Shown: positions 766 through 28,518 of the stretch, in pieces | Layout: each line of letters opens with the position of its first letter | Position numbering within the stretch: the stretch's first letter is position 1 | DNA from: Chitinophagaceae bacterium | GTDB lineage: Bacteria > Bacteroidota > Bacteroidia > Chitinophagales > Chitinophagaceae | DNA: 32,575 bases | Assembly (NCBI GenBank): GCA_025359725.1 | Contig: JANYEX010000157.1 | Coordinates: 1-32,575 of the forward strand | Reading direction: 5' to 3' | The notes under the pieces: model-generated | Database searches by the model: none | Told to the model about the DNA's origin: nothing | Seen by the model: the letters and a program-made list of their open reading frames with translations, nothing else | Position numbers and translations under genes: made by a program

Positions 766-894
766 AGGGAATGCTTATTCATATTCCATTAAAACTTGTT
801 TCAAATCAAAAGACGAATACTTCTTTAGCGTCAGTTAAATGTTCTTTTTTCAACCTAATAATTCTATTTGCAAACCACAATTATCAAAATACAT

Positions 895-1145
895 ATAAAA
901 GAGAGTTCTTTTACTCATCTAATAAAATCGGATGACATAAAAGAGACTTCTTTTACTCATCTAATAAAATCGGATGACATAAAAAAGAGTTCTTTTACTC
1001 GTCTAATAAAATCGGATGACATAAAAGAGAGTTCTTTTATCCATCTAATAAAATCGTATGACGTAAAATAGAGTTCTTTTATGTGATCCGATTTCGTTGA
1101 TGACATAAATTGAGTTTTTTAAGCCATATTGATTAATCGTATGAC
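895..1145. repeat. 42-bp direct tandem repeat array, about six units
   Basis: Units begin at 895, 937, 979, 1021, 1063 and 1105. The first five are exactly 42 bp, the sixth is 41 bp, and a partial seventh starts at 1146. Each unit starts with ATAAAA-like sequence followed by GAGTTCTTTTA and ends in GATGAC; units 1-4 also share CTAATAAAATCG. Units 1-4 are nearly identical, and units 5-6 are degenerate. There are no unique spacers between units, so this is not a CRISPR array. The period equals 14 codons, which creates an open frame at 868-1071 that I do not consider a gene. Confidence 0.9.
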
Positions 1146-1319
1146 ATAAATTGAAAATCTAATTCTGAAAATAAACAATTAGCCCACTAATAAAAAGTCT
1201 ATTATCGAATAAGAAAACGTCATCTTAAAACATTTATAGTCGGCATCGTAGCATTATAGTAACCCCTGTTGCCAAAGTCTATCTTCAACCATAACCACAA
1301 AAGGCTTTACCTTCGCCAC

Positions 1320-21198: not shown

Positions 21199-21324
21199 TC
21201 AACTCCGCTAGTCGTCACTCGCTAATATCTACTAGGGCTGGCGCGAGCGTGCCGCTTGTACATTCGCTAGATAGAAAATAAATATTCTGGTGCTGGTGTC
21301 CAATTATTTTACTACAAGCAATTT

Positions 21325-21536
21325 CTTATAGGATACACATGAATTAACGTTAATTCATGTCCAACGTTATAGGATACACATGAATTAACATTAATTCATG
21401 TCCAACGTTATAGGATACACGTGTATCACTGCCAATTTGTACACAACGTTATAGGATGCACGTGTATCACTGTCATTTTGTACACATCCTATAAGGGAGG
21501 ACATGAATGAACATTAATTCATGTGTATCCTATAAG
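21325..21536. repeat. 212-bp palindromic array with 41-bp modules and perfect 23-bp terminal inverted repeats
   Basis: Modules start at 21326, 21367, 21408 and 21449, exactly 41 bp apart, each opening with TTATAGGAT(A/G)CAC. Modules 1 and 2 hold a palindrome ACATGAATTAA...TTAATTCATGT, 24 bp and perfect in module 1. Modules 3 and 4 hold GTGTATCACTG...TTTGTACAC instead. A final, inverted module (about 21496-21536) ends in TGTGTATCCTATAAG. The outermost 23 bases, 21325-21347 and 21514-21536, are perfect reverse complements. Confidence 0.95.
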
Positions 21537-21669
21537 CGAGGGCATGTATTCATGCTATTTAGGGCTGCGCTAACTAATAATTGGGTGATGTAAGACCACT
21601 GATTACGGGGTTTATTAATTTGTTGAGGTTTGATGAGGAAATTGTATGGATATTACCAGTACCACTAGT

Positions 21670-21702
21670 GCGAGTGTTCAGCGAAGCTGGTCACTCGTGC
21701 TT
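21670..21702. repeat. bulged hairpin GCGAGTG...CACTCG
   Basis: GCGAGTG and CACTCG pair around an inner CAGC-GAA-GCTG hairpin, with further partial pairing outside (ACTAG...TTAGT). It is typical of dispersed palindromic repeats. A related GC-rich piece with GCGCGAGCGTG lies at about 21241. Confidence 0.6.
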
Positions 21703-21804
21703 ATTAGTCAAACCAGTTTGTAACTGTAATACGCTAAAACCACATCTAGCGTAGGTCTATCCGAAAATCGGCAACTGGCGCAGTGTCTCCTACCAATAAA
21801 CCTT

Positions 21805-28287: not shown

Positions 28288-28394
28288 GTATAGCTGGAAA
28301 GGTGTATTGCATAGCTAGGTGAGCAAATTGATTGGCACTAGCAGGTGGATTGTATAGCTTGGCAAGCGCATCGATTGGCATGGGTAGGTGGATT
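28288..28394. repeat. 43-bp degenerate tandem repeat, about 2.5 copies
   Basis: Two full units (28309-28351 and 28352-28394) start G(C/T)ATAGCT and end AGGTGGATT, differing at about ten positions. A shorter preceding unit (28288-28308) has the same ends with the middle deleted. Confidence 0.75.
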
Positions 28395-28518
28395 GATTCC
28401 CGACTTGGGGAGCTATGCGAAGGGCTTTGCTGCATGCCTTATTTAGCCAGATATCTGATTTGTGATTCTTCTATGTCAATTGGATGGAATGGAAAACAGC
28501 AAAAAGATAATGCTAGAA

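Follow-up and report, generated by a model that had tools for sequence, protein, structure and literature searches.

The window analysed here is a 32,575-nt contig of a Chitinophagaceae bacterium (JANYEX010000157.1, positions 1-32,575). At 21325-21536 it carries a five-unit tandem array that is an orphan copy of an array found elsewhere upstream of a gene encoding a protein of ~320 residues. This gene and its array form a defined pair, and the period of the array, 41 or 42 bp, is bound to the lineage of the protein. The detected upstream arrays all have one of these two periods though their letters mostly differ, which suggests a protein-array partnership not described before.

A period of 41 or 42 bp beside family genes

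Tandem Repeats Finder (TRF) detected an array upstream of 73 of 93 family genes, and all 73 have a period of 41 bp (32 arrays) or 42 bp (41 arrays). The count covers arrays of period 30-60 within 1,000 nt of genes with at least 240 nt of upstream sequence. Six genes with less were set aside, L256 was left out as identical with the gene L173, and for L133, L134 and L099 only the first copy was counted. The arrays comprise ~2 to 22 units and end 37-689 nt upstream of the gene, with a within-array unit match of at least 90% in 22 and at least 80% in 48 of the 73. Genus-centred loci contribute 56 arrays from 66 genes and an order-wide set 17 from 27, again all of 41 or 42 bp; this second set, one locus per genome and outside the genus, was fetched after the pattern had been seen. 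Downstream stretches served as a control, and arrays of period 30-60 were found in 2 of 95, both of 41 bp (L133 and L273). A first self-similarity scan had likewise placed 41 or 42 upstream of nearly every gene and no 41/42 signal in the gene bodies, with one case on the downstream side, L105 (0.62 at 42), and also L113 (0.60 at 33).

Three short variants (L133, L134 and L273; 232-243 residues) match the helical part of the family profile only. The repeat lies downstream of them and not upstream, as 41-bp arrays at L133 and L273 and as a self-similarity of 0.70 at 42 at L134. A coding repeat was rejected as the source of the period, since 41 is not a multiple of 3. At L115 the reading frame of the gene stays open through a 42-bp array, which would encode 14-residue repeats, and a longer repeat-bearing product is possible there.

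The letters of the arrays were compared across the protein family. Detectable sequence is shared by the arrays of all five protein pairs with at least 90% identity, by 3 of 15 pairs at 80-90%, 2 of 25 at 70-80%, 3 of 27 at 60-70%, 1 of 98 at 50-60% and 3 of 2315 below 50%. In close-subfamily pairs with a synonymous divergence (dS) near 1, the last ~170 nt of the leader between array and gene are ~78-89% identical and the arrays are often unalignable. The period itself changes 7 times on the protein tree versus 23.2 times in shuffles, none of 500 being as low. This tree holds 71 proteins, as two of the 73 arrays belong to genes that are not full length, and it is a quick tree with some long branches. 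Protein pairs of at least 60% identity have the same period in 65 of 72 cases. In two pairs of sister proteins (L106/L172 and L168/L149) one member has an array of period 41 and its partner one of 42, which makes them informative on what sets the step.

The gene is under purifying selection, with a ratio of nonsynonymous to synonymous divergence of 0.06-0.22 in pairs above 70% identity with estimable dS. It is multi-copy, with 12 matches in the genome of the window, fragments included. Among relatives the family occurs in 13 of 59 genomes, 11 of them among the 13 of the genus, the other two being G032 and G070. This first profile search gave 98 matches in 13 genomes, and 72 distinct genes or fragments from the fetched loci were examined, two of them from G258. 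With a deeper profile, 31 of 396 genomes from the order (its own included) and 13 of 165 genera contain the family, near-complete genomes among them; at most five candidates were scored per genome, 94 matches were listed, and the best locus of 27 genomes was examined. An earlier, narrower profile had returned 2 of 395 genomes in a phylum sample, again counting its own. A search across named genomes located 16 loci with close relatives of the gene, all in metagenome-assembled genomes of Chitinophagaceae.

Membership of a known protein family found no support, with no convincing match in Pfam, NCBIfam, PADLOC, PHROGs or PDB sequences. Three family proteins gave sub-threshold matches only in Pfam and NCBIfam scans, 29 members gave scattered weak matches only in PADLOC, Pfam and PHROGs, and a profile search of PDB sequences returned one row at E = 0.25. 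A phage or plasmid origin was rejected, one protein (L087) being unmatched in 50,697 phage and 72,556 plasmid records. Viral contigs searched with the close-subfamily alignment yielded no confirmed family match.

Orphan and dispersed arrays

A preliminary description of the window had reported a 212-bp array with a 41-bp periodicity, and the repeat search bears this out. Five copies follow one another on the + strand at start-to-start spacings of 41, 41, 41 and 41, TRF gives a period of 41, and identity at lag 41 is 0.77 versus a maximum of 0.43 in 300 dinucleotide-preserving shuffles over lags 20-80. The direct units begin at 21326, 21367, 21408 and 21449, an inverted unit at ~21490-21536 closes the array, and the outer inverted repeat is perfect over exactly 23 bp, as had been described. 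Both palindrome types are present, with cores of the CATGAATTAACGTTAATTCATG type and the GTGTATCACTGCCAATTTGTACAC type; that they alternate was imprecise, the order being two, two and one, and the last an inverted unit of the first type (CATGAATTAACGTTAATTCATG). By eye the hairpin centres are spaced 41, 43, 41 and 40 bp. The tightest dyads found by script are 41 apart within units 1-2 and 3-4 and only 31 apart between units 2 and 3, because the best dyad of units 3 and 4 is CACGTG and not the hairpin. Comparison of copies assigns the array to type A, with 95% identity to the C230 copy, 92% to C190 and 91% to C321. A CRISPR was rejected then as now, since the units repeat over their whole length and no hypervariable spacers separate them.

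The element extends beyond the array on both sides, over ~21275-21324 and ~21537-21654. The first of these flanks (21275-21324, + strand) is a truncated gene-proximal leader (..AAAATAAATATT..TACTACAAGC), recognised by blastn and by a leader alignment of 20 close genes; the segment 21275-21389 is 86% identical to C190. In complete copies the leader, ~200 nt in total, reaches the start of the family gene. The window copy is classed as an orphan because its leader is cut at ~21275 and no gene follows, and the + strand of the array points away from the side on which complete copies carry the gene. The gene-distal flank (21537-21654, + strand) was delimited by identity to other copies (90% to C230 and C140, 88% to C190, 78% to C226) and by a common end, which reads GGATATT in the window and GATATTTGTGG or GATATTTGTAG in other copies. 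On either side the element is bordered by half of a further dispersed repeat (21205-21270 and 21673-21720). By eye, similar halves lie only ~10-30 bp apart on C20 and C62, which would fit an insertion of the array element into one such dispersed repeat.

The genome of the window (G000) is a 3.36-Mb draft in which the window is contig C290. Searching it with the 212-bp sequence gave 36 matches on 11 contigs, overlapping ones and both strands included, and the array is thus one copy of a family. Of 99 genomes, 4 contain the sequence: its own and three more from the genus. The AACGTT-type and ACTGCC-type cores and the 41-bp step are common to subtypes A, B and C, whose linkers differ. Dispersed copies share the gene-proximal leader and a distal flank ending in GATATTTGTGG or similar. 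The copies seen retain an ordered array with its flanks, which speaks against an ordinary dispersed repeat of single units without order, the outcome that would have undone the preliminary description. That description had missed the flanks, the array family, the protein gene and, within the window, a second array of the same class and a doubtful third.

Several side observations concern these copies. An element resembling a miniature inverted-repeat transposable element, with ends like TCGCCGTTGTTG..CAACAACGGCGA, lies just past the distal end at L058 (~2833-2950), C140, C226, L075 and L076. Contigs C140/C321, C278, C194, C195, C28 and C283 of G000 end inside arrays, the ends of C140 and C321 resemble two halves of one locus, and the arrays seem to break short-read assembly. 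The CGTATGCCCATACGG-unit arrays at L180 (8047-8231) and L200 (9752-9933) have ~570 bp in common at 90% identity, exceeding the array itself.

The second orphan element spans 857-1158 of the window (+ strand). It consists of a 42-bp array (895-1081, 4.5 copies, the last unit partly inverted; TRF) with short flanks, and is 95% identical over 302 bp to an array upstream of a family gene on G000:C41 (L138). A further array, L205, is 81% identical to it and has almost identical ends. By eye a possible 7-base direct repeat borders the window copy, and no clear target duplication was seen at L138 or L205. A possible third, weak array at 28300-28395 (+ strand; TRF, 43 bp, 2.2 copies, 77% match) is a doubtful member and has no match among the gene-linked arrays compared. 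The window also carries a gene with a Por_Secre_tail domain, in keeping with a member of the Bacteroidota.

Across 420,675 bp of G000 (41 sources, window included), 13 of 40 TRF arrays have a period of 41 or 42 and three more a period of 82, 85 or 123; of these 16, three lie beside a family gene. Without the window, the 41/42 arrays number 11 of 37 in 388,100 bp. Twelve 41/42 arrays have no family gene in view. Five of them lie within ~300 nt of a contig end, so that the gene could be cut off, and around the other seven each side extends for 890 nt or more, versus a largest array-gene gap of 689 nt. Two genomes of the same genus that lack the gene, sampled over 166,554 and 162,026 bp, have no 41/42 array and one array each of period 60 and 153. 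Gene and arrays thus co-occur in the few genomes sampled, a statement that rests on two control genomes sampled in part.

In some cases the arrays are clearly dispersed. Seven of nine arrays in 400 kb of the near-complete genome G738 have a period of 41 or 42. One is gene-linked, and six have no family gene within 1.5 kb, one of these lying 654 nt from the end of its stretch. Three of the gene-free arrays carry the same unit as the gene-linked one and have their left flank in common. At one G738 site (L301), both flanks align to the genomes G672, G748 and G726, and the array is absent in all three. G738 is ~0.9-2.2 kb longer between these flanks, and more than the array therefore differs. At another (L294, G738:C1 ~1,016,700), the left flank aligns array-free in the same three genomes and the right flank lies ~14-17 kb off and inverted, which places this array at or near a rearrangement breakpoint (inversion, 14-17 kb).

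The family protein and its putative binding to the array

The predicted structure (mean confidence, pLDDT, 81.5; predicted template modelling score, pTM, 0.58) comprises a helical part at residues 12-218 that forms a long bundle (pLDDT 83.0 when modelled alone) and a C-terminal beta-sandwich at 224-319. The sandwich aligns with PirA (3x0t, Z 9.5, root mean square deviation (rmsd) 2.3, 81 residues; 7fcn, Z 9.5, rmsd 2.8, 87 residues) and also with Ena pilins and cupins; this arrangement is common, and the matches are therefore not read as function. The best row for the helical part is a BAR domain (9jih, Z 9.2, rmsd 2.5, 88 residues), within the background of helical bundles. No DNA-binding protein stood out in the fold lists, which have no power to prove absence. 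Among 64 aligned proteins M1, W94, L145 and Q223 are strictly invariant, and of the conserved polar positions Q223 is kept in all, Y49 in 95% and the rest in less than 90%. Together these features suggest a binding or structural role and not catalysis.

The preliminary description had listed protein binding among the possible roles of the array, and it is the role we favour, now with a candidate protein. We consider the chances evenly divided that the system consists of the ~320-residue protein and a phased array that it binds unit by unit on DNA, the arrays having spread secondarily. B-DNA has ~10.5 bp per turn, so that 41-42 bp make up about four turns. The protein, probably as an oligomer, would bind successive units on double-stranded DNA, and contact between neighbours on the array would set the step to roughly four turns of the helix (4 x 10.5 bp). 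Units may be specific to the paralogue that reads them. The gene-linked array could control the gene or seed assembly, and orphan arrays, the window copy included, could serve as additional sites for the protein, with a role in regulation or in chromosome organisation.

A broader proposal, which we hold tentatively and with somewhat less than even confidence, is a new class of bacterial protein-satellite-DNA system. Each paralogue of a large, diversifying family would build a private nucleoprotein array, with the protein as the ruler that holds the step, exact to the base, at 41 or 42 bp. The letters would be replaced at least as fast as synonymous divergence, and the arrays would multiply as satellites amid conflict or division of labour among paralogues. 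We call the system new because neither the gene family nor an adjoining 41/42-bp array was found described in CC-licensed literature, searched at the level of titles and abstracts.

Several results weigh against such binding. Foldseek searches of the PDB return nothing at E<=0.001, either for the complete model or for its helical part; the five matches at this threshold among viral models are mostly small uncharacterised phage proteins that fit the beta-sandwich, and the predicted fold has no recognised DNA-binding domain. In 33 of 56 units there is no significant palindrome. The 10.4-bp harmonic (harmonic 4) of A/T in the units has p = 0.82, and that of AA/TT is weak (p = 0.029), with harmonics 3 and 6 stronger; intrinsic DNA bending was rejected as the cause of the period on these values. 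Twenty of the 93 genes lack a TRF array. Several of these show weak 41/42 self-similarity (among them L095 0.59, L108 0.62, L269 0.62, L270 0.64, L278 0.57), L093, L157 and L159 have an upstream stretch of only 260-520 nt, and others, L271, L272 and L277 among them, show nothing clear at 41/42. The 73 arrays are not fully independent, a few belonging to near-identical orthologues (L279/L281, L092/L102, L090/L091), and the leader is not conserved outside the close subfamily. Clustering of the period on the tree is weakened because the tree is quick and has long branches, and it could partly stem from slow replacement of inherited arrays rather than from a protein ruler. Ten of 13 gene-free arrays sampled in the genome of the window match no gene-linked array compared, and may therefore answer to unseen paralogues or to none.

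Other explanations compete with this one. A selfish system like that of repetitive extragenic palindromic (REP) sequences and RAYT, in which the protein would be an unrecognised mobilising factor and the arrays its non-autonomous substrates, copied round the genome, appears unlikely to us. Such copying would fit the common ends of window 857-1158, L138 and L205, the four G738 sites with one unit (one of them gene-linked), the lack of an array at one of these in three sister genomes, and the six of seven G738 arrays with no family gene within 1.5 kb. The small transposable repeat suggested in the preliminary description is in part supported by the same dispersed, in some cases sharp-ended copies and the array-free site. 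The proteins offer little for a mobilising enzyme: no H-x-H pair is conserved (no such column in more than 30% of the 64 aligned proteins, and Y49 comes without a histidine pair), the conserved polar positions are unlike an active site, and Pfam and NCBIfam scans give no transposase family match. No consistent target duplication was seen by eye, and most gene-free arrays sampled do not match gene-linked ones.

We judge it distinctly improbable that the array acts as RNA, with a transcript of serial hairpins bound by the protein in the manner of type III toxin-antitoxin loci. Were the hairpins RNA, G-U mismatches should prevail, and on the gene strand they do not: 38 G-U stand against 47 A-C (p = 0.39) in 73 arrays, 62 of them with palindromes, and a first pass over 26 arrays gave 14 and 17. 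On this count we set aside an RNA hairpin array, and the folded transcript of the preliminary description is likewise unsupported. Under a simple rule of stem plus T-run, 1 of the 73 intervals from array to gene contains a terminator-like site, the window array has no Rfam match at gathering scores, and a fixed 41/42 step has no apparent reason in RNA. Palindromes are over-represented among the units, being significant in 23 of 56 (p<=0.05), and many units have none that is significant. The layout, in which tandem repeats precede a single gene and seldom recur at other paralogues, does agree with type III loci as far as an excerpt of PMC5086642 describes them. Very improbable, in our estimate, is a cis-regulatory minisatellite to which ordinary regulators bind, the family protein having no contact with it. 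Two of the short variants have their array downstream, the period tracks the protein lineage across families of the order, and gene-free arrays are common in the genome of the window and absent from the sampled parts of the two gene-less genomes of the same genus. A minisatellite of this kind would be in keeping with the leader conserved between array and gene in 20 close genes, whose conserved TATCTAGATAA stretch may, as a guess, be a promoter.

In this pair a conserved, selected family without recognised relatives is tied to arrays that hold their repeat length to within one base and have changed in sequence beyond recognition. What sets the length of a tandem repeat becomes testable with one protein and re-spaced arrays. 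The pair can be set beside fast-evolving centromeric satellites and the proteins that bind them as a bacterial parallel, and it may explain much of the tandem-repeat content, and some of the short-read assembly breaks, in these Bacteroidota.

Comparison with known repeat systems

To our knowledge, each known bacterial repeat system goes with a transposase, a CRISPR enzyme, an RNase or a plasmid partition protein. CRISPR resembles the present pair in having a regular array beside a gene, as does TIGR. Unlike both, the arrays described here have no hypervariable spacers, and in our scans the adjoining gene matched none of the known nuclease families.

ParB-parS, MatP-matS, plasmid iterons and centromere arrays each combine a protein with multiple phased or clustered cognate sites near its gene or elsewhere. 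The family is unmatched to these systems in Pfam and NCBIfam scans. It also differs in that the sites of its paralogues are mostly unrelated and that site letters turn over fast while the spacing is fixed.

Type III toxin-antitoxin systems (ToxIN and CptIN, and likewise TenpIN) also place a tandem array upstream of a single gene. Pfam, NCBIfam and PADLOC scans of the family gave no match to the ToxN, CptN or TenpN endoribonucleases, and the fold lists do not prove such a relation absent. The present arrays are set apart by the lack of a terminator-like site before the gene in 72 of 73 cases, by hairpins without a G-U bias and by gene-free arrays that are common in the samples.

REP, BIME and REPIN sequences with their RAYT (TnpA-REP) share the most features with the pair, namely palindromic repeats beside one gene and dispersed elsewhere, paralogues with repeats of their own, and a mixture of direct and inverted units. 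The dispersal away from the gene is seen in the G000 and G738 samples. According to an excerpt of PMC2817692, RAYT is a Y1 (HUH) transposase with an H-x-H motif and a catalytic tyrosine, and its gene lies between two inverted repeats. The family protein has neither this motif nor a transposase match in Pfam and NCBIfam. In place of a flanking pair it has ~2-22 units of 41/42 bp on one side, upstream in 73 of 93 cases and downstream in 2 of 95. Although the defining motif and the flanking arrangement of REP/RAYT are lacking here, that system is the closest parallel in layout.
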